DNA of 64,000 nucleotides, taken from NCBI GenBank assembly GCA_030141605.1, contig JAQGDQ010000051.1:372001-436000 (forward strand), written 5' to 3'. The notes below the pieces were generated by a model, which saw only the letters and a list, made by a program, of their open reading frames with translations, was not told where the DNA came from and made no database searches. Shown here in pieces: positions 1-35,481 of this stretch. A program made the translations under genes and the position numbers. Positions within the stretch are counted from its first letter, which is position 1. Every line of letters starts with the position of its first letter. The DNA is from Tubiluchus corallicola. Its lineage: Eukaryota; Priapulida; Priapulimorpha; Priapulimorphida; Tubiluchidae.

Positions 1-1091
1 CCTTGTGTTTGCTACATTTTTTTGTTGAAAGTTATCAGAAAATTTTTTTGTGCTCAAATATTTTGAGCAGCAGATAAAAGATGAGAAAACCACTTTTTCA
101 TTAGTTACTTTAAGTGAATTACGCAAGTTAAAGTTTGAAAGAACTTCATGACTTTATTTCATTAACAGAAGTTGTAGTTAATGCCAGAAGGTACATTGCC
201 AATTAAGAAATTCACTGTGTTGACATTATTGTCATCCAAAACATACAATACATACAAATCCTGCTCATTTGCCATCACCTCTATTACTGGCTCAGCAGCT
301 AAATTATATAAACAAGATTAACGATGTGATCAAAACAGTTGCCTCCTGGCTATAAACTTGCTCTCAGGTTCTGCTACTGAAACTGAAATTACAAACAAAA
401 ACCAAAATTTATAAAACATAGGAAATCGATACTGAAACCAAAATCGCTCATTTTTTATAGGCAGGTAGGTATACCTTAAAGTAGAAACAAATCTTGTCGG
501 GAAACTAGAACAATATGTATGGTTAAAGGTCATGATGTTTCAAAACACTTTACAAAATTTCATTGGTTTTTAACATATAGCAAAAAAGAAAAGGTAAACT
601 GGACAAATGTACTACTAAAACCTCCAAAAAATGTACAGAAAAATTACCGAAAGTTTTGTCTATGACATAAATTGTTGACGAAATTGAATTATTGGCAAGC
701 CGAAATTTCGGATCGGTAACAACTCTGATTTACTGTAATTGAGTTTAGCATTTAATCACCAAACTAAAGCTCACTAAAATGTCCTGAATAGTAAGTAGTG
801 ATTAAAATATACAGTGCGTTTTATTAACCATGGTAATCACTAATTGACACGTGTTGGCACAGCCACCTGCTCCAGTGATTCATGGTTTTGTAAACTGAAT
901 AACTATCATCAAATGAATGGGACATGCTGCTGCAAGAGCCAGCATGGCTCAATTTATCCCTATAATAATTATGTGCAAGGAAATTAATGCACTGGGCTTC
1001 TTTGCATCATTTGCCAACATTTTCAACACATATTTTTCTGTTTACAGTACTTTTCTAATAGAATCTTTTTTCTTTCACATTAAGATTTTAG
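1..1091. other. Upstream intronic or intergenic sequence, no gene recognised
   Basis: AT-rich sequence with no exon I can support. The first exon of the receptor gene begins at 1092 and needs two bases of a codon from an earlier exon, so signal-peptide and start exons must lie here unseen or before the window. A short open stretch near 913-980 encodes several cysteines, but its possible splice donor is poor and I did not use it. Confidence 0.5.
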
Positions 1092-1234
1092 CAATGGGAT
1101 TACATATGACGGTTTTGGACGTCCTACTGGTAGCATGAATTTGGACGTTGTCACAGCTCAGACTTCAGCTACACCTTTCTTTGTTTCACCTTCAGTATCT
1201 ACTGAAAGACCTATTGATGTAGTCAACTTTCCAA
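1092..1234 (+). CDS. Receptor exon 1 (first exon seen): Thr/Ser-rich extracellular segment
   Basis: The acceptor is TTTTAG before 1092 and the donor is GTACGA at 1235. The exon begins with the last base of a codon and ends in phase 1. It encodes about 47 residues beginning NGITYDGFGR and becoming rich in Thr, Ser and Pro. I see no fold. It matches the phase of the following exon, which continues the Thr-rich stretch. As the first exon of the model it is the least certain; the missing upstream exon should end in phase 2. Confidence 0.6.
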
Positions 1235-4200
1235 GTACGATTCATTATTAGTGAAATACGACCACAATTATTGAATTCTTAAACCAAATTCTGGCAGAAA
1301 AAAATAAATGTGAAAAAGTCGTCACTGAGCTAAGATTTAAAGCAGTGATATTTAGATTAGATGTCTATTGTCGTAGACCTTTAGATCATCACTTTAGATG
1401 TTCACCAGGAGTCGCATCCAACTTGTTTGCAATAGTTTTTAGAGTCCTTATGATTACAGTGTTGCCTCACTTATCGCGTGTGTTCCCAATTCAAACTCAT
1501 TAGTTCAGATCTAGGCTCAGTCTTGGCTGCTCCAGGTTTCCTTTGTTTCCAATGAATTTAATTTCAAAATTTAATAATTTTTCGGAGCAGCCCATCACAA
1601 ACTGATTATTGTGAAGTTAAAATTGTAGGTAGTTGAACCATTTGTTGCATTTTACTTTTATACCTGTGTTTTTCTTTTAACCCCTTTTTGATGAAGATGA
1701 AGTAGTTAGTCTGTTTATCAGCTGAAGTTCATTGAAAAATTTATTGAGAATTTAAGAACAATGACTATTAAAATGTTACTATCATATTTCAGCCAACAAC
1801 TCGACTACATTAACTACTCAGCCACCTACATTGTCAACTGTGGATTATAGAAAACCAAGAATAACAGAACTTACTAGCAATAGCCGGGTACCTGCTGGAT
1901 CTACTGTTACACTCACTTGTGCTGCAGCAGATACTGAAAATCTTAATGTATGTCGATACAGTAATTAAATATCATCATTACCATGATTTTATTTAGTTAA
2001 TTATACGATTTTATATCACTGATTTAATCTAAAAGCATTAAATTGTTTTTGAGTTCCACATGTAAAAGAAGAAAATTGGTGCCTCTATGCATATTTAAGC
2101 TAAAGAATTTGCAGGAAAAATAAGTATAAACACAAGATACAGATGTTGATGTTTTTATGATTCAAAGTTAAAACTGAAGCACAACTTCGACAGATGGTTT
2201 GGTCTAAAGGATTACAATGTACATTACTTAACACTTGCTTATATAACTGAAGTTGTTAATAGAGTAGAGCAGACATAAAGTAGTTAGTATTATTTCAAAT
2301 GCTATTTTTAGTATGTATAGCAACTGTTTCATTAAATTCATTAACTTGGGAATGTTGACTTCTACTCAGTGTAATCTGTTTCAGATTGTATGGGTGTACG
2401 TAGATGGTGACACACCTCACATGTTAACAGCAAATGGAGCTAGGCTTACAGAGGACGTGAGGTTCAACAGCAAGGTTTTAGGGAGAGGAAGTGAAAGGGT
2501 GGTCAAGTTGAGGATTCAGGACATAACTAAAAGTGATGAAGGTGTTTATAAATGTGAAATACCAACTGTACCACCAGTGTTTATGGAAGTTTTTATAACT
2601 GTTATTCCGGGTAAGAATTATGTTCTGTATTTTGATTAAGTGCACTTCTGGCTTGGTGCGTCCCAAAAACTATCTGAAATGTTTGTAGTAGATATAATGT
2701 GATCATTAAAGATTAAAGATCAAATTACTTACTTGTTGGTCGGTTGACTTATTAGTCAATGAAGTATTGTAGTGATACAATAAAAGATCTAATGAATTGG
2801 CTTTTTTAATTTCTTAGGAAAACAGAGAAATACTGTGACTGAAAAGCTAAAAACAAATTTTGAGGTTGATAAGCTACAGTTACCTGTAAATGTTACCAGC
2901 ACCATCCATTCTGGGAAAATTGATGTTATAAGACTTAATCGTAGTCAAGGTACATTTATATGTTTATGTTTATATTCTTCAACAGCTTAAATATGAGTTT
3001 TTATCTGTTATTCTTAGCTAATAACATTTATCAACAACTACTTTTTTGCAAAAGTTATTTATCTAAAATAATAAATGATAGGAATCTTTATTTGAAGTGC
3101 ACTTTACATATAACTATTGCAAGTTTGTGCTGGCTTTTATCACTATTTGCATTATTTATAACAGTTAAAACAATAACATAATGTAAATAAGTTTTATCAT
3201 TACCTTAAGTTGTTCCAATTTTTAAATTTTGATACACAATTTAAAGTTTAAAATAACATGAGATCTTAAATAGAAAATACTTGTGATAAAAATGCTTCCG
3301 AGTTTTATATTATTTTTATGGGTGCATTAGATGAGCACCAGCGTACACGGATACGTTTTTGCATATGATTTTAAATGCTATTTTTGTTTTGTAGTTACAG
3401 TTGGTGTTTCACGGACAGTTGCAGGTATAAGACAGGATAGTCATGAAGGTACATTAGATTCTACTCAGACTGATGTTGAAAGACGCATAAAAGATGATGA
3501 TAATGAAAGAGGTTTGTATTCTTGAATAATGCTATGCAGCTAAACTATGTTTACTTTTCACAGGTACTGTACAAATAAAAACAAGTGAAGTTATTGTTGT
3601 TGCATTTCATTCCAGAATATTAGCAGATCCAGCATTTACTTCTCTACGAGTGCATTTGCAAAAGAATTCAAAATTAAATTTAAAGAAAGGGTAAAAATTA
3701 AGTTTAGGTGTTAATTTTATTCATTTCATAAACTTAACAGCTTTCAAGTTAGGATGTCACAAAGATCCGACAGAACCGGAGCTTCGAAACCGTATCCGAA
3801 TAGGACCTGTGATCAGATTCGATTCGCCGACGTTCTAAGCTACCTTAGATCTGGCCCGTTTTGAAAAAAATCCAGTTTAGCTTTGGCTACAGAGGCGATT
3901 CTGTAGCACTTTATTATAAAAGCTTTATACGCTCATTTGCCTTTAAAAGTTTTGGAAAAATCTTTAAATTGGTGCCTTTTTTGATAATTTTGCTCTACTT
4001 GAAATATGCTGACGTCACCATATTCAGTTTCAGCATGTGTCCAACTCATGAAATCCTGAGCAAAAGCACGCATCGCGTTACTATTTTAACTGCTAGTTTC
4101 AACAAAAATACTAAGATTTCTCGTATTACTTTGACAGAACGTGGTTTTACTAACAATGCACGATGTGGCTTAAATGCCATATTTTTCATCATCCATATAA

Positions 4201-7200: not shown

Positions 7201-10200
7201 TGTGCTCTTCATTCTGCTGTCACACTGTGCTCTTCATTCTGCTGTCACTCTGTGCTCTTCATTCTGCTGTCACACTGTGCTCTTCATTCTGCTGTCACAC
7301 TGTGCTCTTCATTCTGCTGTCACACTGTGCTCTTCATTCTGCTGTCACACTGTGCTCTTCATTCTGCTGTCACACTGTGCTCTTCATTCTGCTGTCACAC
7401 TGTGTTCTTCATTCTGCTGTCACACGATGCTCTTCATTCTGCTGTCACACTGTGCTCTTCATTCTGCTGTCACACTGTGCTCTTCATTCTGCTGTCACAC
7501 TGTGCGATTCATTCTGCTGTCACACTGTGCGATTCATTCTGCTGTCACACTGTGTTCTTCATTCTGCTGTCACACTGTGCTCTTCATACTGCTGTCACAC
7601 TGTGCTCTTCATTCTGCTGTCACTCTGTGCTCTTCATTCTGCTGACACACTGTGCTCTTCATTCTGCTGTCACACTGTGTTCTTCATTCTGCTGTCACAC
7701 GATGCTCTTCATTCTGATGTCACACTGTGCTCTTCATTCTGCTGTCACACTGTGCTCTTCATTCTGCTGTCACACTGTGCGATTCATTCTGCTGTCACAC
7801 TGTGCGATTCATTCTGCTGTCACACTGTGCACTTCATTCTGCTGTCACACTGTGCTCTTCATACTGCTGTCATACTGTGCTCTTCATTCTGATGTCACAC
7901 TGTGCTCTTCATTCTGCTGTCACACTATGCTCTTCATTCTGATGTCACACTGTACTCTTCATTCTGCTGTCACACTGTGCTCTTCATTCTGCTGTCACAC
8001 TGTGCTCTTCATTCTGCTGTCACACTGTGCGCTTCATTCTGATGTCACACTGTGCTCTTCATTCTGCTCTCACACTGTGCTCTTCATTCTGCTCTCACAC
8101 TGTACTCTTCATTCTGCTGTCACACTGTGCGCTTCATTCTGATGTCACACTGTGCTCTTCATTCTGATGTCACACTGTGCTCTTCATTCTGATGTCACAC
8201 TGTGCTCTTCATTCTGCTGTCACACTGTGCTCTTCATTCTGCTGTCACACTGTGCTCTTCATTCTGCTCTTGCACTGTGCGCTTCATCCTGATGTCACAC
8301 TGTGCTCTTCATTCTGATGTCACACTGTGCTCTTCATTCTGCTGTCACACTGTACTCTTCATTCTGCTGTCACACTGTGCGCTTCATTCTGATGTCACAC
8401 TGTGCTCTTCATTCTGATGTCACACTGTGCTCTTCATTCTGCTGTCACACTGTGCTCTTCATTCTGCTGTCACACTGTGCACAACGGGACTAACCATTAG
8501 ATTTATTCTTTTTTTTTCTAGAATTAGCAGCTACTCCATTCTTCACGGTTTGCATGGGGATGTGGCAGATACCAGATAACTGCGATTTTGATTCAACCAC
8601 TGACAGTCCAGAATGCCAGTATCGTGCATTGTGGGCTTATAATGCAGCTAATGATAGTGTACAATTTATCATACAGGCAAAAAATTATGGTTTGCACTGG
8701 ACAGGGATTGGCTTTTCAAAAGACATGAAGATGGTTTGTAACAATATGATATGTAGTTTGCTTAACTTTCTTACTAGAAAAATTACACCTCACATTAAAT
8801 TCGGAATCTTTTTTTGTTTCCTTATATGCTAAAAAATTGCATTTAGGTGTACTAAGCTGGTGAAGAAGCCAAATGTGTAGCAGCATTCTTCTAGCTTTCA
8901 GTGTCAAGTTTAGTCCTTCCCATCTGTATAAAAAAAAACGAAAGTGTAGCTACAATGACCTGCTTCCAGTTAGATTTCTTAGACTGACTTTTGCATCTTT
9001 TCTGTACAGACATGCTTGACACAGCCAGTGAACATGTAGACTACAACTAGGAGTCGGATGCTGAGCATTTCAAATATCATTGAATTTGTGTATTCAACTT
9101 ACAAGTTGTGTTGAATGCATTAAATAAAGTGAAAATCTTACATTCATTCAAATTCTCACATTACATTGTCAGAGTGCTATAAATTGTTTCTACAAAAATG
9201 CTTTGTTTAACTGACATAAATAATAATTTGTATTTCTTTTAAAACGTGACGATGGTTTTTTTGTTGTCATGGCAAGTAAAAGCTGGCGGTCACCTAAGTA
9301 CTTATACAAGAATTGATTATCCACTTGTAAGAATTGTAAGTCACTAGTTTTCTAATATACATTTATTCCTAATAATTTTACAGCCATTGTCTGATGTTGT
9401 GTATGGCTGGGTAAAACCAGACAGTGGAAGGCTTACTTTGATTGATGGTTATATGGACACATACAGTGTGCCACGAGCTGATAGAAAATCTGATGTACAT
9501 GGCATTTCTGGTCATTTGGTCAATGGTGTAACAACTATTGGGTTCTGGAGAAAGCGTAGCACTGATGACGCTAGAGATGTTCAATTTGCAAATAGTGACT
9601 GTTTTTACTTCCTTTTTCCCTATGTTACAAACATTTATGATGATGCCAGCAAACATATCATCAAACACGAGAAGACGCCCATTGTGTCATCTCAAAAGAT
9701 ATGCATTCGACCTTGCAGCATGGAAGGTAAGTCTTATCGTTAAGCATTACTTATGTATGTTTGAACTTAAGCTGGCACGTAGCCCAAAAATTTGTAATGT
9801 GTACCATGAGCTATTTAACTTTTTCCAAAATTTTATTGCTTTTTTGGAGAACCATTATTACTAATGTGAAGCAATGGCATTGACTTTATCTGTAGAAATC
9901 ATGTATTTTAGGCTGATGACAAACTATTACAGGTGAACAAAAAGAGAAAAAATGAATTGCAGCATTTTGTTAACAACCTTTTGTTTCTTAAATTCTTATT
10001 CTAGCAAAACACTTTTACTCCTTTAGAAAGGTTTTAACTTTGTAATAACTAATTTTACTAAAATGAATGCAAGGTACAAAATATCGAAAGTTATAATTTC
10101 TAAATAGAATACCCCATTGCCCTTCAAAGCAAAGTCATTTGCCTCACTGAAAATAAAATTCACTATGCGCTGAACTTTTAAGTATGGTATTGTTCAAAAA

Positions 10201-13200
10201 ATCTTTCCCAGAAATTTAACACAGTAGCAAATGGTAACTATGTAATGAGTTTACATGGTTTGTGGCGAAAAAACTATAGCATGAGAGGTGTAACTTACAC
10301 ATAAAGTGCAAATACTTCACATAATTCACATAACCATTATATATTTTAAACAGCATTACCCAGTGTAAGGTGCAAACAGCATTTCTTTGCATTTGCATAT
10401 ATTATACATTTTATATTGTTTGTTAGCATATGTATATTAGTTTGAGAACACATGCATACAGGTTTATTAGTTATAATTGGATTTTGCTGTTTTACGTTTC
10501 CTACACTCAATACTAAATTCATGGTGAAATTTATATAATCGGCTTTTTAGGATCGGATTTGTTTTTCTCATCAAAATCTAAGAACTTTAAAAGCCAAAGC
10601 GAAGGAGTTGAAACGCCGACGCAACAAACTGAAATAAACGTTAATGTACAACAACCAGGTAATTTTGCAAAAATATTTTTACGATTGCTGTAACTATGTG
10701 TACTATCTGAGACTACTATCAGTAGCTTGATCCAATTAAAATAGTACACGTCTGTCCAGTTTTATAAGCACTTTAGTTTGAGATCGGATCAAAATACAGT
10801 CTTCTTGCAGAACTATTTGGTTAATTGCAATAATTAGCTGTGTCTTCTTCCAGGGAAGCAAGGTTTCCTACTTAATATCGTATTTAGGTTTATTGTGAAC
10901 AGATACTATACTAGAAGATGAATTGTACTTTACCTCTATTGTCATTCACATGTAGATACAGCAAACAGAAAATCAGTACTGAACAAGAGAGGAGATGACA
11001 ATGTTTGGTTGGTAAGGGATAATACTAATTAGGAAAGGCACTGTACAAAATAGGCTGTACACAAAAACCAAATGACAATTACAGAGAAATTTTGACTTTA
11101 GGATATTGAAGAGTGTGGTAATAAACAGTGGTGTAGAATTTTGAATGGCTGGCAAATTTTGAATGGATATGTTCTATGGTTTGGCAAGTTTATATTTTGG
11201 TACTTGAATACTTGATTAAGCATTTTTCATGCTTAAGCTAAAACTAAGTCATGTTCTGAGGACATGTACTATTTTCAGACACATTAACGCACTGCAAAAT
11301 GGAAACCAACATTCAATGGCAGGGCACTTGGACTACCTGAACTTGTAGAAAAGCTGTATGTGCAAATGCAGTATATATGATCAATGTGCTTAAGCTTTTA
11401 GATGATTATCTTGAAGCTCATTTCTAGTTTACTTCACCTTTTGCGCCCTTGAATTTTTTGTATGCAGAATAATGGTATCCTTTCAAACCTCACTATATGT
11501 ACTTTCTTGCAGACAAATTTGTATTTAGTGACTTTGGAACTAATTGTTACACATTTGTTATACTAATTAGTAATAATATTGTTTCAGCTGTTGGCAAAGG
11601 TGATAAAAATGATCAAGTGTTTATTACCCGGACTACAGGACGCACTAAAACAGGTTCTGGTATAAAAAGTACAATAGCTGTTCAACCCTATGGGAAAAGA
11701 ACAAGTGAAATTAATACTGGATGGATACAAACAGATTCTGGGCAAAGCATTTCATTTGGACAAGAATTCAATATCAGAGGCAAAGATAAGGGCAGCATAA
11801 CACTGGTGACTGGTGTTGGAGAAACTGAAGAACTTCCTATTGATGACTCTATTGACGCTAGTGCTGTTATTCCTCTACTTGACAGTAAGTATTTTCTTTT
11901 TTTATTTTTACCTTGTAAATTTGTAACTTTTGCATTTTATCAAGGAGTTTTTGCTAATTTTTTTTCAGCTGGGTTTGGTCAAGGAACTCAATTGTGCTCT
12001 GTGCCAGAGAATGTCAAGTTCACCGATTTCAAACTTCTCTCTCAAGTTCCCGAAGTTGGCTCGAAGCTTGTCCTTTCTTGTCAGCCGGGCTTCATATTGG
12101 CTGGTTCTCCTATATTGTCATGCAGACGTGATGGTAGCTGGCATTCTGCAGACGAAACTTTTCCATCTTGTGGTAATCTTAACACCTCTTTTGTTCTTAG
12201 ATTTGTATCTTTAATAACTAAGACACACCATTCCCACAGATGAGAAATTCAAGTTTTAGCAAGGAACCATAATGACAAGAAAAAGATATTTCATAATTTG
12301 CTTGAATGCAAGTTCAATTAATGTTTAGTGTAACTATTTGCTACTCATATAGCTTATATTGGTTGTTTCATTTCCAGCAAAATGTTTTTTTTATTTAAAA
12401 TAGCATGTGTATGGTGTGTGTCTAATGTCAAAACTCTTACCTTGTTTCGTCTGTTGTTTATTACTAGTTGAGATTAAAAACTGTGGGCCACATCCAGTAA
12501 TTGAGAATGGTGCATATGAGTTGCTAAATGGAACGACAACAACAGGAAGCATGGTTACCATCTCCTGTGCTGAAGGTTTTGCCACAGATGTGCCAATAAG
12601 AGAATGTAGTTTGGAAGGCAAATGGAGCGGAGGCTCAGTAAGATGTGCAAGTGAGTTAAAGAATGTTTCAGTTTATTTAGATTCTGTTTTTACACCGTGA
12701 TTCTTTTCCATTGCATTATAGTGTTCTTTACTGCTCTTATATACTTTAACGGAAATTTATTCCATGGCAGGAATCTATTTGCTCTCGTTCCTTTCTTTCA
12801 CCACTTACAAACAAATAAAATTAGATCACTAATATTGCTATAATGCTACCTTCTTGAATGTTATTGAAACTAAGGAGTAAAAAGAGTAACTGAATAAACA
12901 TGCTGTCAAATATGAGCCTTGCTGAACCTCAATATCACAACCATTTCAAAAAATTAAATTATTGTCTAATTAAATAATAATAATGCACTATGCTTGCAGA
13001 ATTGTGCATGTACATATGCACTATCAGTGACTCTTTTGGTTGTAGTTATTAGTACTGATAGTGTAGCAGTTGCTTCATAAATTAGTATGTATAGTCCAAA
13101 CAAACCCAAACGTGATTGTTGTTTGCAAAATAAATCAATGCTCAATGTTGAATAAGGCATTAAACATAAGTGCTGCAAAACTACTTTTTATTTAAAAACT

Positions 13201-16200: not shown

Positions 16201-19200
16201 TAGAATCATGGATAAGAAAAAGAGGATGATTGAAGAAGAACAGCGAGTCAAGACAGATTAACATGCACTGTACTACACAGACTGTGTAATACACATTGCT
16301 AATATGCATTGTAATGAAATTACCACTATCTGTCGTGAAAGTAGAAATATATGGTTTTTAATATAAATTTTGATAACTTCTAAAATAGTTTCTTGAGTGT
16401 AGTAGTGCAGTAGTAATGATGTGCGCAAATCGGATGCAAAAAATATCGTTATTAGGTCCTACTGTATTTGGCTTCTTGATCAAACTGCATGTGGCCCACA
16501 GGAATTGCGGGAATGTTTAATGTGGCCCGGCTAGTTAGATAATTTGCACACCCCTGCGTTAAAGTAATGATCGTAAGTCTCATCATTGTGAATTTTGCTA
16601 ATTTAGACCACATGCCTTGGAAAATTGCACATTTTATGGCCCTTACTAAATTTATATACTGGCAAAAAACAGCAAACAATTGTTGTTGCAGTTAGAATGG
16701 CGTAGAAAAAAATATTTGGTTTTTAAATTATAATTGGGTGTCAGTTTTATAATTTTACAGTTTTCTATACTTTGTTCAAAATTTATCTCAGTATACACAT
16801 GTTGGTCATACTGTTATGGTTGCAAACATTTTGTTGCTGTTTTACTCCATTAAATCGTGAATAAAAAAATCAAACCTTTTTGTAGACGCCGGAAAAAGCT
16901 GAGTGGGTCAGCAGAAGCAATTAATGAATCACTTGTAAAAACATTGAGCATTGATATACCTAGAGCTAAGAGCAATGTAAACCACAAACAAAATCAACTT
17001 AACTTTGGCTTCTGGAAAGCTGGCAAACGGGTGGGTATCATAATATATAATGTATAATATGTTTTTTTATTATGTGGTTTCCCCAAGCACCAGGTTCGGG
17101 TTCCAGTAATTTAAAATTCTTTTTTTTTAAATCATTCTTCAAATAAATATTTAATAACTTAATTGGATATGGAAGGTGGAGGTGTATTATCAAAAACAGT
17201 TCATGCTAGAACAAAACACATGTTTTACTTGTATAGATTATTTAATAAAGAAACATGTATTATTTAAAACATAGTATGATGATGGTGGTAGTGAGTTCTC
17301 TAGATCAGCAATGGGAGTCTCAGATTTAACAAGACAAAGTGGAAACTCTAGTGAAGCTGTCCCAGCATCAAGGTACCTCATTTGCCTGTTGTTAGCTTTG
17401 TTATTGCTTCTGGTTAAACAGTAGTCTGTGACAAAATTTAACAGAACTTAGAGACAAGGTTTCACTAAAAAAACTTCCCTTAGACATGCGTGTGTGGTAC
17501 GCTTACTCGAAATAGTATAAAAGTTTACATGTGGTAGTCATTGCCAGTTTAGTCACACTGAATACAGCCAACAACTTGATAGCGTAATCATATGAGTAAA
17601 ATTTCATATTTTTACATAAACAGACATGCATCCAGTGTGCTTTAGTAAAGATGCATGACTTTGTTATAATATTCGCCTGACATGACCATGCCTGTGAAGC
17701 CATTGGCACAAATTCCACATTTCCTCAAATCCTTTTTCACTTTTTCTAAGAAAACAAAAATACATAATGCTATGCACGTATTGCTTCGAACACCTGATTT
17801 GACAATTACAGTTTTACACTATGTATAGTTATTGCTACTAAATTGTGGCATACAGAAAGGCAAATGCGAACATGAGCTATTTCTGGTTACTTCTCCAGAA
17901 GCTTCTTGAGAAAGGTTAATTATGTGCAAATTATACGCAGTACGCAATACTGCACATATCGCATGTTAAATATATCGACTATCTGCATATAGTACACTTG
18001 TAATAAACCTTTATTTTTCAGACTGTTCACCTCTTTATCTTTATTTCTTGCTAAAAAAGACTCAATTTTCCTAACAAGACACTGTTTTACAGAAATTATT
18101 AGATTTCTAAGGACTGTCTGAAAAAATGCGAAATTATCCATTTTTTGATTAAAATATCAAATTACTGATAAAGTGAGTACTGGTTGCACTTTAGGTCTTG
18201 TAAAGCTGGCTGTTATATGTTTGTATGAACGGTTACATATATATAATTTCCATGACTACATCTCCAAAGGCTACACCATTCTTGGCAACCTGCACATCTA
18301 ACGAAATGCCATTATCCAAAAATTACTACCCTAAATGTCTTAAGGGGATGGTTACTGTATAATATATAGTCTGGTAGGATTATTTACATGAATCTTAGGA
18401 AAGACTTAATGTTTATGCTTTGCTGAGTAAGCTTTTGGTAAAAATATTTTCAAATTAAACAAAAATTACTATGTTTCCATTAATATTATGTCCAGAAGAT
18501 TAGTATTATGTGGAATATAAATAATACTGATATTTGCTTTATTTTCGTTGCAGCTATAGCGATATTCCTTATAGAGAATAACTTCGTAATTGCTAAAATT
18601 TTGAAAGTTATTGTTAAGTTAACAGTCTAAATGGTAGTAATGTACTAAAAATAGCCCATGCCAACTCCTTTCCTGTGTTTTTCAGTTTTGCATTTCAAGG
18701 AAGTGGCATGCCCGTGTTACTGTCAGGTGACGGTCCCCATATAGTTTATGACACGTCTGGTCATCCTGCGGGTTTTACTGGTGAAACATCTGAAGAAACT
18801 TCAACATCAGGAGGGTCTGAGCATGCTGAACATGCACTTCTCATTCCTAGAGCTTCCATTGATCCTGGTAACCCAGTCCGACCACCAAGAAAAAATGAAA
18901 CAAGGCGACTTGATGAAGCCTTTTCATCAAATAAAGAAAGACAAGATATTATTGAGTATCGAGATCAAAATGAAGAAACTAAAGATCAAAATATTTTCTG
19001 CAATGATGTCAACTTATCAAGGTATCATTTTATTTAATTTGATGTAATGAATGTGTTACTGCTGTTGAAAGAATATTTTGGCCTGCATCATTTTAAAACC
19101 GATATTAAAATATATAAAACAGAATATTGAAATAATTTTCATTTACTGAAATTACTCAAAACTACTATACAAGTAATATAAACTAAAATAATTTCAGTAT

Positions 19201-22200
19201 CTTTTCAGTTTGTTATGTCCAGGTAATTAGATAAAATAAATAATTTTTAATTAATTAAAACTGTCATAAAATAAACTTCAGATATTAAAGTTCAACTACA
19301 TTCTCATATTAAGGGCAACAGTGTGACAGTATCATAAAAATAACATTGGCAATCTTCAAAATTTATAAAAGAAGGTAAGAAACCGACGTTTGCGTAGTGT
19401 AGCTCGCTGCCGCTTCAGGTGGACTAAAAGCACATAAGCATCAATGATTGTTTTTACTAATTTGTTACTGTCATAAAAATTCTGATTGCTCTTCAGTTGA
19501 CTTTGTGGTGATTTTAATTACTCAAAATTTTCATAACTGACAAGCACGTATTAAAGGGAGCAGAGTTTGCATGTCTGCTCTTTAGAGACGGCCAAACAAC
19601 TGCATGGACTTTAATAAAATCTATACTAAGGAAATATACTAAGAGCACTGGAATGGACTTGTGGGGGGGGGAGCGCAGTGTATGTCCAAAATGCCAGCCA
19701 AATTATGTATCTTTACTAGATATCTGAAATATCACGTATCAATATCTCGAGGTAGGGATGACATCGATTTTGATATTTGACACCAAATTATTGCATTAAT
19801 GAGAATAAAGTTTGGCATCAGTAAGGCGTGGGTCACTGAGTCGGACACAGAGATCACCAATATACCTCTCTTCTGATTTTTTTGCTATCCTAAAATATGT
19901 CCCTAACCTAGTATATAGAATGGTTAAACTGCCTAGTCTACAACCTATCAACCAAAGTGATGAACTCTTTCAACCAAATATAGGAATCATATCTGAATTC
20001 TTGTATCATATATCATATTTAAATGAGAAATGTGAAAGTACATGTTGTAACATGTAATTTTGAAACTAACTGATACCAGTATTAGAGAACTGTAATGTAT
20101 ATTACAGTTCATATATGTGACATGTATGAAAACTGTAATGTATCACGAAAGTTCACATTTTACGTTGTCGGTTGTTAATGATGACTACGTTTAAAGTACA
20201 AGACTCTTTATAAATCAAGCTTAAAAAATCGTATTGAAATTTGATATCACTTACATTCTGTCTTATTTTGCTGTGTGCACAGAGCTTGTATTAGCAGTAA
20301 CGCTAAATAAAACTTGAAAATGTAAATTTCCGCAATAACTGTTAAGTGCAGCCATTTGAGGCTAAATTGTTTGGAATAAGTTTAGATCGCATTGCGTAAA
20401 ATTTGAAAAACAATCAGAGCATTTGTAGTGCACACTTCATTAGCTAAGAAAAAGTTTAAATTACTTTATATTGTCAGTAACATCAATAATGTGTTTTTTT
20501 GGGTGAGTGAGTGGTGCACACTGGGATGGCGATGCACCTCATTTTAACCAGGTGGCAAGATTATTTTAAATTATTAACAATTTTCTTTTCTTATTACATA
20601 AGTCTTTTCAAACAGGTAAGCATAATACAAAGTAATTTAACTATCCTTGGGAAATTTTTTGGTTCATACCTGTGTCACTGAAATTGAGATTACGCTGTTT
20701 ATTTGCAGGTCATCACGAATGCAGGGTCCTTTATCTGATGATAGTGCAATGACTACTGCTGTCATTCATCATACTATAACTGAAACTGAAGAAACAAGAG
20801 AGGAAACTCACATCAGAGATCATTTTGAAGACAGCACATTTGATGGTGATGCCAATCGAAGTCAACCCGAATCTGACTACGTTCCTGGTAATTTGTTTTT
20901 TTCATGTTACTCTTGAAGAAAAGGATAAATCACTTAGCATGTTGGGTTTATTTTACTGTTATTACTTAAACTTAGAGAAATTTAAAAAGAAATTTGCAAA
21001 AAACTGCCTATAAAGCATAAAGTTAATTTATATTACCGCTGTATAGAAATTTTCCGGGGTGCTGATAGCCACATTCACTTGCAAATTATGATAACTGGTG
21101 GACTTTGTGACTTTTCATAAACGCATCGTTGCTTTCCGTAAACATGTGCCACTTAAACTAATTTAAACTTCTGCAGTTTACCTAATGTTTTGCAAAAATA
21201 TCACAAAATTAGCTATCTAAACTTTGTAAATAGCGAATTATTATACGTTTGACTAAAATTGACAGTGTGCTGTTTTTCTTCAGTCGATGAATGACGTCGT
21301 TGCTGGTAGAATGAATGTTCGAAATGGAAGTGCACACACTTGAAATGATTATGATTTTAAAGTGATTTTACTACTTACACGAGGCGCTTATCGCACTTTT
21401 ATTACTAAATCCTTCTAACATCTTTTGCAAACATTGAAATAAGCCTCACTTTTTAGAAGGCTTTTTCCTTTCCTTTAAAACAACCAATGCATATGGTAAG
21501 TCAAAATTCCAGCAATTACAAATAGTCGATTTTCGTAGTTTTGCTCCAGAAAACATAGGTTTTGCTAGTGAGTCTCTGTTTTGCTCAGATTACGGTTGGT
21601 TTGTGATTTGTTTCCCGAAATGACGGTTTTTGCTTTCAAACGACAGTTTGGCTTAGAATACTGTAGTTTTGTGGTGAATAATAAACCTATTTATGATTTA
21701 GTAATTTACAAGTTTATTTTCAGGTTATGCTGAGTTGAAACAAGTTCGCAATGAAATGCAGAGGTTTGATATACAGCGTCAACCACAGCAGCAATATAAA
21801 CATGGTCAATACGACATCTTGCCTGTGCCAAAGTCCAGTGAAGGAGCCGAAATTATATCAGATTCCATGCGCAAGCGGAAAGCTGATGTTATGAAAGTAA
21901 GTGATTAAAAACTACAGAAAATATTATAGCATTTTTTATACCGGGGTTGTCAACCACATGGAAAATCCTGTCCCTTAGCTATCGGCCAAATTTAGGGTTT
22001 CAGGAGAGACTACAGATCAGGAGCCTCAAACCTTTGAAATATTGACCTTTCTACAAATTGTTAATATATACAGACCTTCACACAATGTCACAGATTATAA
22101 AGTATAACAAAAAGTTATCATGCCTCATTTTTATTTTTCACAGTACAAATAGAAATTGTTGTTCTTCAATAAGCATTTTCTTGCAGTTACTACAGCAGGG

Positions 22201-25200
22201 ATGAACAATGGAAATGTACCTGTCCTTTTAAAAATCTTATTATGCACAAAAATGTGTTTTAGTATGATTTATATTTTTTACATTATTATTGTCTTTTAGA
22301 AATATTTTTAATTGTGATTTTTAACTATGCTTTCTTTACTATTCTACGGTACTTTTTATGTACTGAAATAAGCGTAAAATAAAAAATAAATAATGAAATA
22401 CGTATGAAGTTTGGTTAACTTGTTTTACTGAGCTTCTGGCTATTATCTCTGCTGTGTGAATAATCTCAGCAGTGAACTAAATGTTTTTTTCTGTTTATAT
22501 TTCAGGAATTGTCAGTTTCAGCTTTATATGCAAGAGTGCATAAGAACAGGCACAAAAATCCAGGCAGTAATGCACGTGCACCTAGTGGAATTGGTGATGC
22601 TGCTATTAACACCTATGAAACAAGAGAAACCTCAGAAACTGTAATTGAAGAAGAAGAAAGGAGAGAGTATCAGTCTCACTTTACTCCTGAAGAAAATGTG
22701 CCATCTAATATGCCACCATTCTTCGGTAATGTACAAAAAGTGAATGTGATAGCAGCACCTCCGGAACAATGGTACAAAACAGAGACAGGGTCATACTCTG
22801 TTGAAAGTGAATTCCATGGTCCTGTGATGATACAGACTGAGAGTGTTCCATCTGTCCGTAGCTCAATCCAGCATGAGAATGTAGCAGATGAATCTCACTA
22901 CACACGATACATAAAGAATAATAGTGAAGCAGGTGCTAATCATGGTGATAGAATATATCGCAAGAAGAGCTCAGTATGTGGTAGTGCAGGCGGATTGATG
23001 ATACCACGAAACAGAAACAGTCATACTACTACAGCCAGCCATCACAGTCAACATTCTACTGGAGGATCCAGCATTGATTATGGTCCGATGTATGCCAATC
23101 TTGATGAAATTGAATATCACGAAATTATGCCTGTAAACGGCGAAGACTCATCAATACGAAGTGAAAATCATGCAAAGGAGATCTATTCACAATCATTGCC
23201 ATCCAAACAGGGTAGTGATTCAATAAAATACAGTGATCCTTCTTCGTACGAAGGCAACACGATGGCAAATGTCAACATTGAAGAATCTCAGGTTTGTTTT
23301 CTTCAGTTAAAGTTAATTTTGAAAATATAGGGGACTAACATTTTTTGTAGAGCAAACTTAGCACTCAAGCAAATAGGTAAACGTATATTGTTGTATAGTA
23401 AATCCATGTAATGCATCGTCAGTATTGCCCATAAAATATTGGACAGCTGATTTAACTGTGACACATAGAGCTCTAAGCTATGTTAGCAAAATGGCATTAA
23501 ATATAGTAGTTACTTGACATTTCTTAGTGCATTCTTGGTTCTAATGTAAAGATACAGAACTTAAGCCTGATTTCTTACTCCAGGGATAATTTATTACTTA
23601 GTCCTTATAGTATTACAAATATGAAAATCAAAACTAGAGTAACTTAGTGATGAAGAACTTTTTATTCGAAACATTTTAACAAACGAGTTTAGCATCCCAT
23701 TAAAATACGAGCAAACAGTATGTATCAATGGCACATGAGATATTCAGAAACATGGTATTACACGTTAGATCTAATTTATTCTCAATTCTTAATAATCAAA
23801 AACATTTAAAATTTTCAAAACTTTTACCTGAAGGCTGGACATCTCTGTGAGTTTATATATTACACATTTATACTAAACTCTGTAAAATTCTGATAACATC
23901 TAATTGCCATTTGTTATTGATATTTGTTCTCATTTTATTGCTTGGTGTCATACTTTGGTAAAAAATCTGACTCCCATTATGGGAAATCAAGATAGCATGT
24001 TTTTATGTGTGTTATATCTCATGTGCCCTTTGTATAATTTGTTTGTCAATTTTATTCACACTTTGATTGCAAATGATGATTAAGTAAAGAAATTGAACAA
24101 TTGGAAAAAGCAAAGTGACTTATTACTAAACAACAAACTTATTAGTTGAATTTGCCATTAAAATCACATAAATATAAAATTGTGTTAGACCTGCCAACTT
24201 TCATGCAGTAGGCATGTGTAACATGTATTTTAATTGTTTCACACGCGTAAAATTTCATCTCTCATGCATTAAGCAACGTCACCCTCAACGCAGCTATCAG
24301 TACCAGCCTCAGTAATACCGTACCAGTCACAAGTCTCATGACGTATATTGTACTGAAGGATTACAATTGAAAATTAAGCATTGATCTTTTTCCATATATG
24401 CAAAAGAACATAATTTGTATGCGAAGTATAATGACTTTACAATAAGAGCACAAGAAAGCTGAGTAATACCCTAAACATTATCCCCATTTTTACTTTTTGG
24501 CCTTAATTTCTTGATGTTTTGATTTGACTGCCAAAATGCAAAAATGATGAGCTATGATTCAGTAAGTAAACAATATACATGTATTGTCAATATTTTATAA
24601 TATAATGAAATTTGAGTGGTAGTACAACAGAAGAAAATTAATACAAATAAATTCATTCAGTCATTACTTGAGTGCCAATAAACTACTTACAGTGATATAG
24701 AGAATATTGCTCATTTACTGAAATATACTGTTGCTAGTATGAATTGCAACAGGATAAAAAGAATTAAAAGTCATTGTGGTTTAAGCATTACAGTGAACAG
24801 TATCTGTGGCCAGAGGGGAATCATTACAGAAAATTTGTTACTTGGATGACATTCGTCATTAATGATAACTTGGGCCCTCTTTGCAACTCTCGTTTTGTAC
24901 AAATGTGACATAGGTTGCTGTTCAATTCCTATAATTTTTGAAGATTCCTGTTCTTTCTACACTTTACACTAATTTTTACATCAAATAGTTGATAGGTCTG
25001 TTGCTTAGGTATATCAGCTGTAACTAAAAGACATAAACCAAACACTAAATACGTTCTTACCTATAATTAAGACTTTTTGTTCTTCGAATATTTATCAGTC
25101 ACGTTCTACCAACTCCTGTCTTAATGACCACTAGAAGTAAGTCAGGTTTTGAATATTTTCAGAGATTTAAAATTGCCGCCTGAATCTACACGCAAAAAGA

Positions 25201-26730
25201 ACCTAAACTAACCAATAGGTTTTCTACTAATTTCAAAGACATTTTCTTTTTATCTATAGTGCAAACTGCTCCTTACCTAGTTGTATTAACAATAGTAACA
25301 ATGGTATTTATAATTTGCTTTATGCATTTTTTCTAACTTTTGGTATATATGCCTATGCGATCTTACATTGATGTATTTTTACAGTAATATAAGCTAATAA
25401 TTTTATTGATAGTAGTAAATCATCTTGCTTGTTACGATAGTTCATATCCTTTGCTTTATGGTGGTTTGCAGACAAACTGAAATTTAGGTTCCGATTTTCA
25501 TTAAAACTATAATTTACCATTTATATAACGGTAGCAAGTGCTAATTTGATGTGTTATCAAATTACAAGTTTCATATTACTAAGGGCGATGATAACTAGCC
25601 AAGAGCTGACTATACGTTTTTATACCGACCAGAGTAAAGCAAAACTATTCTTGACTAGTAAATGGATGGTTCAGCGCCAATAAAATACTTCTTGTCATTT
25701 TTGTCTGTCATACCGCCTGTAGCTATTTATTGTATTGAGAAAAGATGAAAAGATGCATACATCAAAACAGATCTAAACCACCTCTGCCAGCTCATTGTGA
25801 CACCTCTGCTAGCTCATTGTGACACCTGTGCCAGCTCACTGTGACACTTTTGCCAGCTCCTCGTGACACTTCTGCCAGCACACTCTAGCACCTCTACCAG
25901 CTCACAGTGACACTTCTGCCAGCTCACTCTGACACTTCTAGCAGCTCACTGTGACACTTCTGCCAGCTCACTCTGACACCTCTGCCAGCACACTCTGACA
26001 CCTCTGCTAGCTCACTATGACATCTCTGCCAGTTCATTTTCTTATCTTAGCGAATTATCCTTGATAATGACATGAGTTCCAGCTTGACAACCTCCAGTAT
26101 CATAAGTATGCTGTGTCTTTCTTTTATCGCTTCGGAACTATTACAGTAGCTAAGCCCCATTTAGAAGCAAAACATTGTTGAGCTGTATATTAGATCTAGC
26201 AGACTGAAGTGTTATTTAACTGCTAAAACAGGGAATGGAAAATTTACTTTATAATGGTCATTACGTTGTGCCCAAAAATGAAGACAAGTTGTCCCTCATT
26301 AGTTACTTGGATCAATCATTGTAGTGCATTTTTTCTGTGAAAAGACATTCTCTTTAATATAGCTTGTGCAGTTCAAAGTTTTGCACTACACTTGTGCAGT
26401 GCAACATATAACTAATCATATTTAATACACATTGCGAAATAAATATTTTTATCTTGTCTTTCTATTTTTTAGATTGATGATATATACACACGGAGTATTC
26501 ACCCAAGTTCACACTCTGGTACACAGCGGAGTCGGAGTCTGCACAGGCATGGTTCTATACCATCTACCACTGGTGTTAGTGTTGGCGTTGCTAACTTTGA
26601 TGAGTACGAATTAGATGATCATATGAATGAAGAAGATGAAATAAATACATCTATTAGGAATTATTCTGTTACAGATGAGTCAAAAAACTTTGCTAAAGAA
26701 CAAGAATCGCCCTATACTTATACAAAATAA
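1092..26730 (+). CDS. Ig-DOMON-triple CCP single-pass transmembrane receptor-like gene (20 exons, 5' partial)
   Basis: Coding exons: 1092-1234, 1793-1947, 2385-2610, 2818-2949, 3395-3511, 8522-8733, 9384-9726, 10551-10658, 11588-11884, 11969-12172, 12468-12650, 13551-13730, 15104-15242, 16886-17030, 17275-17372, 18686-19021, 20709-20887, 21724-21896, 22506-23291, 26473-26730. All borders are GT-AG and every phase joins, giving 1,470 residues (numbered here from the first full codon). Domains: Ig-like ~72-168, Ser/Thr-rich linker ~175-257, DOMON ~265-440, unknown 479-577, three CCP modules 587-645, 651-705 and 710-764, transmembrane helix ~788-812 followed by a basic stop-transfer run, and a ~658-residue tail. 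By family knowledge, Ig and CCP modules bind ligands at the cell surface and DOMON domains bind heme or sugar. A cell-surface recognition or signalling role is inference. The start codon and signal peptide were not found. I do not recognise the gene. Confidence 0.87.
1793..2610 (+). CDS. Receptor exons 2-3 (1793-1947, 2385-2610): Ig-like domain
   Basis: Exon 2 carries a Thr-rich stalk and then the first Ig strands, ending with VTLTC (Cys 90). Exon 3 supplies the core Trp (Trp 102 in IVWVY) and the classic second-cysteine motif DEGVYKC (Asp 150, Tyr 154, Cys 156). The intron between them falls in phase 0 inside the domain; exon 3 leaves in phase 1. The cysteine spacing of 66 residues and the strand pattern fit an I-set or V-set fold. 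By family knowledge such domains mediate protein-protein contact outside the cell. Only one Ig domain is visible; more could lie upstream of the window. Confidence 0.85.
2818..3511 (+). CDS. Receptor exons 4-5 (2818-2949, 3395-3511): extracellular linker
   Basis: These two symmetric phase 1-1 exons encode about 83 polar residues between the Ig and DOMON domains. Exon 4 has N-glycosylation sequons (NVTS near its middle and NRS near its end). Exon 5 is acidic and charged, ending DDDNERG. No fold is recognised. The intron after exon 5 is 5 kb long and holds a hAT element and the 25-bp minisatellite. Confidence 0.7.
3750..5379. mobile_element. hAT-type non-autonomous DNA transposon, 1.6 kb, in receptor intron 5
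   Basis: The element begins TAGGATGTCACAAA and ends with the matching inverted TTTGTGACATCCCTA. Both sides carry the identical 8-bp duplication TTTCAAGT (3742-3749 and 5380-5387), the length made by hAT transposases. The subterminal regions hold repeated GGATTCGA-type motifs in both orientations. No transposase reading frame is recognisable inside; the small open frames at 3861-4455 and 4865-5164 look like chance. It contains the large hairpin at 4700-4781. Assignment to hAT rests on the duplication length and the terminal form. Confidence 0.85.
4700..4781. repeat. Perfect 33-bp inverted repeat with 16-bp loop
   Basis: The arm 4700-4732 is an exact reverse complement of 4749-4781, and one more pair forms at 4699/4782. 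The loop is 4733-4748. It lies in the interior of the hAT element, not at its ends, so it is not the terminal repeat. Transcribed as part of the receptor intron it would form a long perfect stem. Confidence 0.9.
5694..8483 (+). repeat. 25-bp minisatellite, about 111 units, no indels
   Basis: The unit is CACACTGTGCTC followed by TTCATTCTGCTGT (25 bp). Sampled units from 5701 to 8476 keep the exact 25-bp register, so I see no insertion or deletion over about 2.8 kb. Variation is by point change: CTGCTGT/CTGATGT, CACAC/CACTC, GTGCTC/GTGTTC/GTGCGC, CTGTGC/CGATGC, GTCACAC/CTTGCAC. Variant combinations recur in blocks, for example CTCTGTGC followed by CTGGCACAC at 5871, 6021, 6921 and (slightly altered) 7621. 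The unit has no stop in any forward frame, which makes long false reading frames. The array ends about 40 bases before the DOMON exon acceptor. Confidence 0.97.
8522..9726 (+). CDS. Receptor exons 6-7 (8522-8733, 9384-9726): DOMON domain
   Basis: Exon 6 encodes a cysteine-bearing lead-in and then the first DOMON strands, with QFIIQAKNYGLHWTGIGFSK, which fits the family's '...W.GIGFS' signature. Exon 7 continues with SDVVYGWVKPDSGRL, a 'D.Y' segment and NGVTTIGFWRK, the usual order in DOMON domains (DVV.GWV, then G..NG.T...F.R). Exon 6 leaves in phase 0 and exon 7 in phase 1, so the pair is a phase 1-1 module. By family knowledge, DOMON is an extracellular beta-sandwich binding heme b (cytochrome b561 and DBH-type proteins) or sugars. 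Met residues lie near the loop (KDMKM), but I cannot assign heme ligands. No monooxygenase or b561 domain follows. Confidence 0.88.
10551..10658 (+). CDS. Receptor exon 8: short polar linker
   Basis: This phase 1-1 exon of 108 bases (36 residues) has acceptor GGCTTTTTAG and donor GTAATT. It encodes a Ser/Lys/Gln-rich stretch (GSDLFFSSKSKNF, then many Gln and Val) with no recognised fold. It joins in frame to the DOMON exon before and to exon 9 after. Because it is short and symmetric it could be alternatively skipped; the sequence alone cannot show that. Confidence 0.65.
11588..11884 (+). CDS. Receptor exon 9: unrecognised ~99-residue extracellular region
   Basis: This phase 1-1 exon of exactly 297 bases has acceptor TTGTTTCAG and donor GTAAGT. 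It encodes a Gly, Thr and Ser-rich region with alternating hydrophobic residues (VFITRTTG, STIAVQPYG, GSITLVTGVG) that looks beta-rich, ending in an acidic LPIDDSID stretch. It has no cysteines. I do not recognise a family. Being a symmetric exon between DOMON and CCP modules, it could be a separate small domain. Confidence 0.75.
11969..12172 (+). CDS. Receptor exon 10: CCP/sushi domain 1
   Basis: This 204-base phase 1-1 exon encodes one complement control protein module: four cysteines in the order Cys 587 (LCSVPENV), the LSCQPGF cysteine, the LSCRRDGSWH cysteine and the final PSCG, with Trp between the last two. This is the sushi pattern with C1-C3 and C2-C4 bridges. The one-exon, phase 1-1 structure is typical of these modules. 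Confidence 0.92.
12468..12650 (+). CDS. Receptor exon 11: CCP/sushi domain 2
   Basis: This 183-base phase 1-1 exon has acceptor TTACTAG and donor GTGAGT. The module runs from NCGPHPVIENGAYE through VTISCAEGF and RECSLEGKWSG to VRCA: all four cysteines, the NG turn after the first and the conserved Trp before the last are present. This is the most canonical of the three modules. Confidence 0.93.
13551..13730 (+). CDS. Receptor exon 12: CCP/sushi domain 3
   Basis: This 180-base phase 1-1 exon has acceptor TTTTTTCTAG and donor GTTAGT. It encodes ITCTMPSAPKNGYIS, ISYGCNRGYVL, RTCLGTGFWSG and PKCGG, with all four sushi cysteines and the conserved Trp. It is the last module before the juxtamembrane exon. 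The intron that follows contains the MADF-remnant element at 13910-14623. Confidence 0.93.
13910..14623 (+). mobile_element. TIR transposon carrying a MADF-domain remnant
   Basis: The left end (CACATACACTTTAAAAAAAACGTC) and the right end, read in reverse (CCATACACGTTAAAAAAAACGTC), form inverted repeats. These continue for about 50 bp through repeated TCAAAATTTTGAC motifs. The interior is clearly less AT-rich than the flanks and holds a coding remnant (14083-14495). MADF proteins often accompany PIF/Harbinger transposons, which suggests but does not prove that class. The exact ends and target duplication are unresolved: a TTAA lies at the left edge but not at the right. Confidence 0.7.
14083..14495 (+). 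pseudogene. MADF-domain protein remnant (frameshifted)
   Basis: An ATG at 14083 starts a short Lys-rich frame that runs into a stop. About 25 bases further, in another frame, a MADF (Myb/SANT-like) domain reads EVINVYKTLPALQIKSPDY, NRDKKVAAYDMKKY and VERRLNTLRTNFRNEL. This follows the family pattern of an N-terminal helix with a 'P.L' turn, 'Y..R..K..A...', then 'V...L..LR..F..EL'. A small indel must have separated start and domain. MADF proteins bind DNA as host factors or as the second protein of Harbinger-type transposons. Its position inside the inverted repeats favours the latter. Confidence 0.72.
15104..15242 (+). CDS. Receptor exon 13: juxtamembrane stalk and transmembrane helix
   Basis: The exon enters in phase 1 and leaves in phase 2. 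It encodes a short stalk and then an uninterrupted hydrophobic segment (AIMGILFPLIALLLLAF, then ILAAVALL), residues ~788-812. The following exon opens with RRRKK, a clear stop-transfer signal, so the topology is N-terminus outside and C-terminus in the cytosol. Confidence 0.93.
15514..16556. mobile_element. hAT-type DNA transposon, 1.04 kb, in receptor intron 13
   Basis: The left end is CAGGGGTGTGCAAA and the right end is the inverted TTTGCACACCCCTG, a perfect 14-bp terminal repeat of hAT form. Identical 8-bp duplications CGTTAAAG flank it (15506-15513 and 16557-16564). The interior is richer in G and C near the ends (repeated TGCGGCCCA motifs) and has no intact transposase. A second hAT-like end (GTGGTCACCCCTG at 16084-16096) suggests a nested or composite structure. 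Confidence 0.9.
16886..17372 (+). CDS. Receptor exons 14-15 (16886-17030, 17275-17372): start of cytoplasmic tail
   Basis: Exon 14 opens with the basic anchor RRRKK and encodes 49 mostly polar residues. Exon 15 adds 32 more, beginning YDDGGSEF and Ser-rich. The donor of exon 14 is taken as GTGGGT at 17031, because it joins in phase 0 to exon 15. The alternative GTATCA at 17035 would break the frame. No catalytic domain. Confidence 0.78.
18686..19021 (+). CDS. Receptor exon 16: cytoplasmic tail segment
   Basis: The acceptor is GTTTTTCAG and the donor GTATCA; it enters and leaves in phase 2 and encodes 112 residues. The sequence is polar, rich in Glu, Ser, Thr and Gly, with tyrosines in HIVYDTSG and IEYRDQNE contexts. 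It contains no recognised domain and looks disordered. Confidence 0.82.
20349..20660 (+). repeat. Unnamed ~300-bp dispersed repeat, copy A
   Basis: This copy shares a string of motifs in order with three others in the window: GCAGCCATTT, GTTTAGAT, AATCAGAGCATT, AATTACT.TAT.TTGTCAGT, GTGGTGCACACTGGGA, TTACATAAGT.TTTTCAA.CAGGTAAGC and a CTAAGTAA-type end. It lies in receptor intron 16, just before exon 17. No terminal repeats or coding capacity seen. Confidence 0.75.
20709..20887 (+). CDS. Receptor exon 17: cytoplasmic tail segment
   Basis: The exon enters in phase 2 (acceptor TTTGCAG) and leaves in phase 1 (donor GTAATT), encoding 60 residues. It is acidic and Thr-rich with repeated TETEETREET-like runs. 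It ends in SDYVPG, which joins to YAEL on the next exon to place two tyrosines four residues apart (Tyr 1063 and Tyr 1067). Confidence 0.82.
21724..21896 (+). CDS. Receptor exon 18: tail segment with YAEL and YDIL motifs
   Basis: The exon enters in phase 1 after TTTTCAG and leaves in phase 0 at GTAAGT, encoding 58 residues. It begins GYAELKQVRN, where Tyr-x-x-Leu is an SH2-docking form, then a Gln-rich run, then QYDILPVP. The C-terminal end is basic (RKRKADVMK). No fold recognised; phosphotyrosine docking is inferred from the motifs alone. Confidence 0.85.
22506..23291 (+). CDS. Receptor exon 19: largest tail exon, multiple tyrosine motifs
   Basis: This 786-base phase 0-0 exon encodes 262 residues (1124-1385). 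Tyrosine motifs: LYARV (Tyr 1131), MYANL (Tyr 1319, also a YxN Grb2-type site), IEYHEI (Tyr 1327, fits the ITIM pattern I-x-Y-x-x-I) and IYSQSL (Tyr 1350). YANL and YHEI are only four residues apart, closer than a standard ITAM spacing of six to eight. The rest is Ser, Asn, His and Glu rich and probably disordered. The donor after GAATCTCAG is GTTTGT. Confidence 0.9.
25779..26042 (+). repeat. 22-bp tandem array, 12 units, in receptor intron 19
   Basis: The unit is CACCTCTGCCAGCTCACTGTGA. Twelve copies follow each other in exact 22-bp register and differ only by point changes (CACTTCTG, GCACACTC, GCTAGCTC variants). As with the 25-bp array in intron 5, the sense strand is the pyrimidine-rich one. 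It sits about 430 bases before the last exon. Confidence 0.93.
26473..26730 (+). CDS. Receptor exon 20: C-terminal tail and stop
   Basis: The acceptor is TATTTTTTAG. It joins in phase 0 to exon 19 and encodes 85 residues and TAA at 26728-26730. It includes IYTRSIHPSS, an Arg/Ser-rich stretch, FDEYELDDHMNEEDE and the terminus ESPYTYTK. The terminal sequence is not a classical PDZ-binding motif. Confidence 0.88.
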   Translation: MDDIYTRSIHPSSHSGTQRSRSLHRHGSIPSTTGVSVGVANFDEYELDDHMNEEDEINTSIRNYSVTDESKNFAKEQESPYTYTK

Positions 26731-34879: not shown

Positions 34880-35481
34880 TACAAGCCAATTTAGACAATG
34901 GGTCGAACAGCGGGAATAAGTGCATCACTCAATAGTTCACCGGCAATACCTTTGCCTACACCACAAAGAAAGCGAAGTGTGGCGAATTTTTCCTTCCGTC
35001 GTATTTTTGGTCGTCAGAGTAGAAAAAGCAAAGAATCTAAGCAAAAATCAAATCGTGGTAATGATGATGATAATGGTGATAGTTCAGCAGCAGACAAGCA
35101 CACTTGGCAAGTACAGAAGTCTTTCCATCCTCATTTAGCGGAACCTGAAGATTCTGCAAGTATAGATAGCAGCAAAAATGAAGGAATTCATTTTATTGAA
35201 TGTCCTTTGTGTCTAACAGAGGTAAAAGAAGAAGATTTTCCAATTATCACAACTTGTGAACACAGATCATGTCAACCTTGCCTAAGTCAATACTTAACAA
35301 TTGAGATTACAGAATCGAGAGTTAGTATAGCCTGTCCACAATGTTCTGAGTGCTTTCATCCATCTGATATCAAGTCAATTCTTCAAAACGATGAGCTTAT
35401 GAGGAAATACGAAGAGTTTGCTCTACGTCGATACTTGGTAGCTGATCCAGATGCGCGTTGGTGCCCATCTCCTGATTGTGG
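34880..35481 (+). CDS. RNF19: RNF19 exon with start codon, RING1 and first IBR residues
   Basis: Acceptor GTTATTTCAG lies before 34880, so a non-coding first exon is upstream and unseen. The ATG at 34898 is chosen because the protein begins MGRTAGIS and continues directly into the conserved RING1. A basic stretch ([20 protein letters not shown], residues 24-43) precedes RING1. The exon ends in RWCPSPDCG at donor GTAAGA, inside the IBR zinc-binding region. Confidence 0.95.

Follow-up and report, generated by a model that had tools for sequence, protein, structure and literature searches.

Furrowed-type lectins and related architectures

The Drosophila proteins Furrowed and CG9095 combine an F-type lectin domain (FTLD), a C-type lectin domain (CTLD), CCP modules and a transmembrane (TM) segment (PMC5712786). 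Tribolium CTL15, described as the Furrowed homologue, has one F5/8C domain, eleven CCPs, one CRD and a TM, and the second CCP of Furrowed is reported to mediate homophilic adhesion (PMC9954269). Tribolium CTL16 contains a CCP (residues 43-98), a K12A domain, a CRD (251-381), three CCPs (387-560) and a TM (678-700) (PMC10341621); from these reported positions, the K12A domain, which is named after the eel agglutinin 1k12, lies between 98 and 251. In the present study, the protein predicted from a locus of Tubiluchus corallicola had the same ordered scaffold as CTL16, namely CCP, F-type lectin, CTLD, CCPs and a single TM, and the same domain set as CTL15, Furrowed and CG9095. Unlike these selectin-like CTL-X proteins of insects, it carries three DOMON and 17 Ig domains within the CCP array, after the second CCP that follows the CTLD. 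Its size is about 5,000 aa, compared with 836-1,111 aa in Tribolium, and it has a 655-aa tail and six CCPs, compared with the eleven CCPs of CTL15.

The F-type lectin of the predicted protein is N-terminal to the CTLD, CCPs flank the lectins, and a single TM is near the C-terminus. The protein is best read as built on a Furrowed/CG9095-type (CTL-X) scaffold, the match being one of architecture and not of orthology by sequence. Since both of its ends follow the CTL-X/Furrowed-like order, it is probably not an orphan receptor. The first-pass annotation, made on the 3' part of the gene, knew of no named family with its domain combination; this holds for the DOMON/Ig insert, but the upstream exons supply the known FTLD-CTLD-CCPn-TM scaffold. 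In the open-access literature, no description of FTLD, CTLD and CCP modules combined with DOMON and Ig domains was found, nor of DOMON and an F-type lectin together, and DOMON, immunoglobulin, sushi and C-type lectin co-occurred only in an unrelated venom proteome.

CTLDs occur together with Ig domains in Drosophila Contactin and other CTL-X proteins. To our knowledge, these proteins have no F-type lectin, no DOMON and not the CCP/TM arrangement of the predicted protein. A cell-adhesion role has been described for them (PMC9954269). Vertebrate selectins resemble the predicted protein in their adhesion-receptor layout of CTLD, CCP array and TM; in contrast to selectins, the predicted protein has no EGF after the CTLD, contains F-type lectin, DOMON and Ig domains, is far larger and has a long tail. 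The DOMON, a fold that binds heme or sugar, is familiar above all as a part of enzymes and electron-transfer proteins. DBH/MOXD1, the ferric reductase-like proteins (DOMON-cyt b561) and Knickkopf/Skeletor (DM13-DOMON) share the Pfam DOMON family PF03351 with the predicted protein, and the ferric reductase-like copies of this genome can be aligned to it across the DOMON domain. However, the DOMONs described here lie among Ig and CCP modules, unlike those of these families, and Pfam found no copper monooxygenase, cytochrome b561 or DM13 domain in the predicted protein.

A predicted gene of 73 exons

The window, that is, the whole stretch of 64,000 nucleotides, corresponds to C1451:372001-436000 of a 343.5-Mb genome assembly, with window position 1 at C1451:372001. 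Exons were read from the sequence and then joined by a script for exon chaining that combined codon log-odds with splice matrices and phase tracking and was run over C1451:282001-436000 and again over 305001-399500; the script works without transcript input, and it proposes exon joins and does not prove them. All 20 of the frame-consistent exons previously described in the window were recovered on the + strand (window 1085-26730); their borders are AG/GT and their frame is consistent throughout. These exons form the 3' end (exons 54-73) of the predicted 73-exon gene, and the N-terminal part of its product would be encoded upstream of the window. The gene start formerly placed at 1092 had to be abandoned, because the exon in question must begin at 1085 to stay in phase with DOMON2, which is just outside the window. 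It is an internal phase 1-1 linker exon (exon 54 of the model, 1085..1234, + strand, acceptor cacattaag/AT at 1084/1085) that begins in phase 1 and contains no start codon or signal peptide.

Upstream of the window, 53 further exons on the same contig (C1451:308437-371870) join in frame. The whole chain (C1451:308437-398730) runs on a single strand with AG/GT borders, matching phases and no internal stop, and the 302,001-436,000 stretch of the contig contains no gaps (N). On the + strand, the upstream part comprises the first CCP of the model (C1451:308437-308619), the F-type lectin in three exons (316427-319042), the C-type lectin in two exons (319668-320730), the second and third CCPs (321057-321233 and 326572-326769), DOMON1 (329346-330449), 16 Ig domains (331983-369204) and DOMON2 (370892-371870). 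After DOMON2, the predicted order continues with Ig17, DOMON3, linkers, three CCPs, TM and tail. Hence one CCP precedes the lectins, two follow the CTLD and three precede the TM, with the DOMON/Ig block in between. The predicted protein has at least 4,947 aa, its N-terminus not included, and only a weak candidate for a signal-peptide exon was found (C1451:301048-301129).

Within the window, also on the + strand, exon 54 is followed by Ig17 (exon A, 1793..1947; exon B, 2385..2610), two phase 1-1 linker exons (2818..2949 and 3395..3511), DOMON3 (exon A, 8522..8733; exon B, 9384..9726), a further phase 1-1 linker exon (10551..10658), a 98-aa exon (11588..11884) and CCPs 4, 5 and 6 of the model (11969..12172, 12468..12650 and 13551..13730). 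Pfam analysis of the spliced C-terminal product returned DOMON with 149 bits over two DOMONs (DOMON2 and DOMON3; profile positions 2-123 of 124), Sushi with 105 bits in three stretches and V-set/I-set Ig with 38/30 bits, each score exceeding its curated cut-off, so that the Ig domain, the DOMON split over two exons and the three CCPs of the first-pass annotation were borne out. Moreover, genome-wide profile searches matched two segments of the window to DOMON (8611-8751 and 9390-9623) and three to Sushi (11995-12171, 12482-12646 and 13559-13726). The 98-aa exon, which had been called an unrecognised domain, indeed had no Pfam match, but it contains no cysteine and is probably a linker. The earlier order of Ig, DOMON, three CCPs, TM and tail was correct for the membrane-proximal end, though not for the whole protein.

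Two candidate features of the window were rejected. An additional linker exon proposed by the gene finder (3564-3649) was dropped, its end phase being mismatched to the next exon, and an apparent signal peptide at 12425 (MSKLLPCFVCC...) was discarded as the translation of a polypyrimidine tract that precedes a CCP acceptor. The intron between the fifth and sixth exons of the window is filled by a minisatellite with a 25-bp unit, about 111 copies and 93% matches (5693-8480), and a second tandem array (22 bp x 11.7 copies, 25779-26036) lies in the last intron.

A chance origin of these domains is excluded, because full-length Pfam matches extend over exon joins and dN/dS is 0.34-0.79 among the Ig units that were duplicated. 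The ab initio chaining of the model and three long introns of 4.6-7.8 kb (at 308.6-316.4, 321.2-325.8 and 375.5-380.5 kb) would also accommodate two or more adjacent genes, that is, a lectin gene upstream (CCP-FTLD-CTLD-CCP-CCP, perhaps including DOMON and Ig) and a separate Ig-DOMON-CCP3-TM-tail receptor downstream, much as in the first-pass annotation, and the weakest join of the model, from the first CCP to the F-type lectin, spans the 7.8-kb intron. We regard such a division as unlikely, although it deserves consideration. No convincing TM or anchor exon occurs in the model before the TM at 387.1 kb, and the domain blocks are not divided by a stop or a good signal-peptide exon. Module borders are almost all phase 1-1, and DOMON2 is joined to the exon at window 1085 as phase 1 to phase 1. 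The introns have a median of 731 and most are shorter than 3 kb, whereas the next gene begins about 8 kb beyond the stop codon. Furthermore, the upstream half by itself would be a Furrowed-like head without its usual TM and the downstream half a base of three CCPs and a TM without a head; the two halves of a known receptor thus flank the DOMON/Ig block, which argues for one gene. We infer that the 73 predicted exons form one transcript, and the probable explanation is one very large gene in which a Furrowed/CG9095-type CTL-X scaffold has received a DOMON/Ig block, encoding a single-pass protein of about 5,000 residues.

The neighbouring gene (window 34895-40900) has exons for RING and IBR and, after them, a TM-like exon, and it resembles an RBR E3 ligase, presumably of the RNF19 type. 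Elsewhere in the genome, long single-exon CCP arrays with open frames of up to 2,442 aa occur at C1991:118-128 kb, C1930:14-16 kb and C1594:79-89 kb. Searches of the genome yielded neither COX1 nor an innexin, while Cys-loop receptors were abundant, as expected of an animal that has a nervous system.

Lectin head, Ig array and cytoplasmic tail

In the N-terminal part of the predicted protein, Pfam identified, with scores above the cut-off, three Sushi domains, DOMON1 (93 bits), Lectin_C (63 bits), V-set (42 bits) and, ahead of Lectin_C, F5_F8_type_C_2 (47 bits). The best solved relatives of the F5/8-like domain were fucolectins (FBP32, 1.5e-26; eel agglutinin 1k12, 4e-12), and solved-structure matches of the CTLD-CCP part were mannose-receptor-type CTLDs and complement CCPs; NCBIfam gave no match for the F-type lectin. 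Alignment with 1k12 showed a retained His and a retained first Arg, and Ala at the position of the second Arg (Arg86 of eel agglutinin). We take the His/Arg/Arg set of 1k12, including Arg86, to be the fucose-contact residues. Sugar-binding CTLDs usually carry EPN or QPD together with WND, and the C-type lectin of the predicted protein has QPE and WNV at these sites. Because of the Ala at a fucose-contact Arg and the QPE/WNV in place of the usual motifs, sugar binding by the lectin head may have been lost, although this is uncertain. No second FTLD-CTLD gene was seen in this genome. A C-type lectin fragment with identical in-frame TAA stops was present on at least 13 contigs (e.g. C2:1102688 and C14:74086), and it represents either a repeat or redundant contigs.

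The 17 Ig domains, 16 between DOMON1 and DOMON2 and Ig17 between DOMON2 and DOMON3, are mostly encoded by two exons with an internal phase-0 intron, and W, D, Y and P stand at fixed positions common to fifteen Ig B exons. The canonical cysteines are retained in Ig1-4 and Ig13-17. In Ig5-12, which are recent duplicates, both have been replaced (by Ala in LKAVA and by Phe in YRFE). The array copies differ from one another, though the assembly appears to include redundant contigs. Among Ig5-12, dN/dS was within the range given above in 28 of 28 pairs; being below one in every pair, it identifies these units as constrained coding sequence under purifying selection and does not point to diversifying selection among the copies.

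The TM helix and long tail described previously were confirmed, with one TM and a tail of 655 residues instead of about 658. No other hydrophobic candidate within 90 kb equals the TM exon (window 15104..15242, + strand; Kyte-Doolittle 3.0), which contains the only convincing TM of the model. The tail is encoded by six exons on the + strand (16886..17030, 17275..17372, 18686..19021, 20709..20887, 21724..21896 and 22506..23291) and by the last exon (26473..26730), which carries the stop codon and is followed by AATAAA within the next 300 bases. The sixth of these exons (262 aa) contains YANLDEIEYHEI and, like the tail as a whole, is present in a single copy in this genome; NCBIfam found no match for the tail. 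A large single-pass receptor of modular build agrees with the predicted product. Its signalling type has weak support: the tail contains 26 tyrosines, but the YxxL/I motifs (4 observed vs 2.3 expected, P 0.19) and ITIM-like motifs (1 observed vs 1.2 expected) were no commoner than in shuffled tails, and one closely spaced tyrosine-motif pair had P 0.05. The tail thus shows no excess over chance of tyrosine motifs of the ITIM/ITAM immunoreceptor type. It may take part in signalling, though the motif counts are near chance.

These observations bear on the idea that the receptor serves immunity or allorecognition and that its Ig array was diversified for non-self recognition. Recognition receptors of invertebrates repeatedly contain lectin, CCP and Ig modules, and the array expanded recently (Ig7/Ig8, dS 0.04). 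However, the dN/dS values of Ig5-12 indicate constraint instead of diversification, and the locus does not belong to a receptor family, since the tail is single copy and a second FTLD-CTLD gene was not seen; such a role therefore appears improbable.

DOMON domains and proposed function

DOMON1-3 and the DOMON units at four other loci of this genome share a common exon structure and set of cysteines. In this subfamily, exon A ended with a Met in 8 of 8 compared DOMON exons and exon B contained a His in 7 of 7, and exon B of DOMON3 ends with a C-terminal CxxxC. DOMON domains bind heme or sugar according to the statement in PMC4846438, citing Iyer et al. 2007, and the DBH DOMON is without the axial heme ligands (PMC4846438), whereas the present subfamily keeps Met and His. 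Judged from these residues, the DOMONs could bind heme. It is very unlikely that the protein is mainly a signalling receptor whose giant ectodomain uses DOMONs as heme-binding redox or heme-sensing units and whose lectin domains are vestigial. The invariant Met and His, the heme binding described for DOMONs and the degenerate look of the lectin sites would agree with it, but the likeness of Met/His to cytochrome-type axial ligands rests on sequence and not on structure, a PDB profile search with the DOMON set matched no solved structure, and the tail motifs are near chance.

Further DOMON genes of the CxxxC-ending subfamily, some in tandem, occur on C1442, C821, C1627 and C648, which represents an expansion of the DOMON family; they lie beside EGF-like exons or Glu/Pro-rich repeats. 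In the 10-kb stretches that were read, the other DOMON genes adjoin EGF-like or repetitive exons and not Ig or CCP. DOMON genes in long open frames (268-481 aa) were also found at C1453:31-51 kb, where four are clustered, and on C2085; they resemble ferric reductase-like DOMONs and are perhaps retrocopied. The same DOMON score appeared on six contigs, and a mobile element was considered for these copies. The three stretches checked, which hold a ferric reductase-like DOMON gene (C1831, C1974 and C2107), showed 100% identity across 3.2 kb, in coding and non-coding DNA alike; therefore redundant contigs, which the assembly seems to hold, are more likely than a mobile element.

For the single large gene favoured here, three DOMON and 17 Ig domains, as symmetric phase-1 modules, would have entered the CCP array by exon shuffling and tandem duplication. 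The resulting Ig/DOMON stalk may hold the lectin head far from the membrane, where the head could mediate adhesion or recognition between cells, either glycan-dependent or homophilic, as in Furrowed, while the DOMONs might use the conserved Met/His to bind heme or a different small ligand and the long tail might link the ectodomain to the cell interior. By analogy, a long-reach adhesion or recognition receptor is the function that we somewhat favour, mainly because the second CCP of Furrowed reportedly mediates homophilic adhesion (PMC9954269). A bolder version, in which a lineage-specific mega-receptor would carry the Furrowed-type head on a stalk of heme-binding DOMONs and partly disulfide-free Ig domains and its adhesion would be heme- or redox-sensitive, seems very unlikely.

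If the proposed gene is correct, a conserved insect lectin scaffold of adhesion and planar polarity would have a giant, DOMON-remodelled relative elsewhere in animals. The locus would then serve as a test case for the role of DOMON outside enzymes, for receptor building by phase-1 exon shuffling, and for tandem Ig units that lose both core cysteines together.
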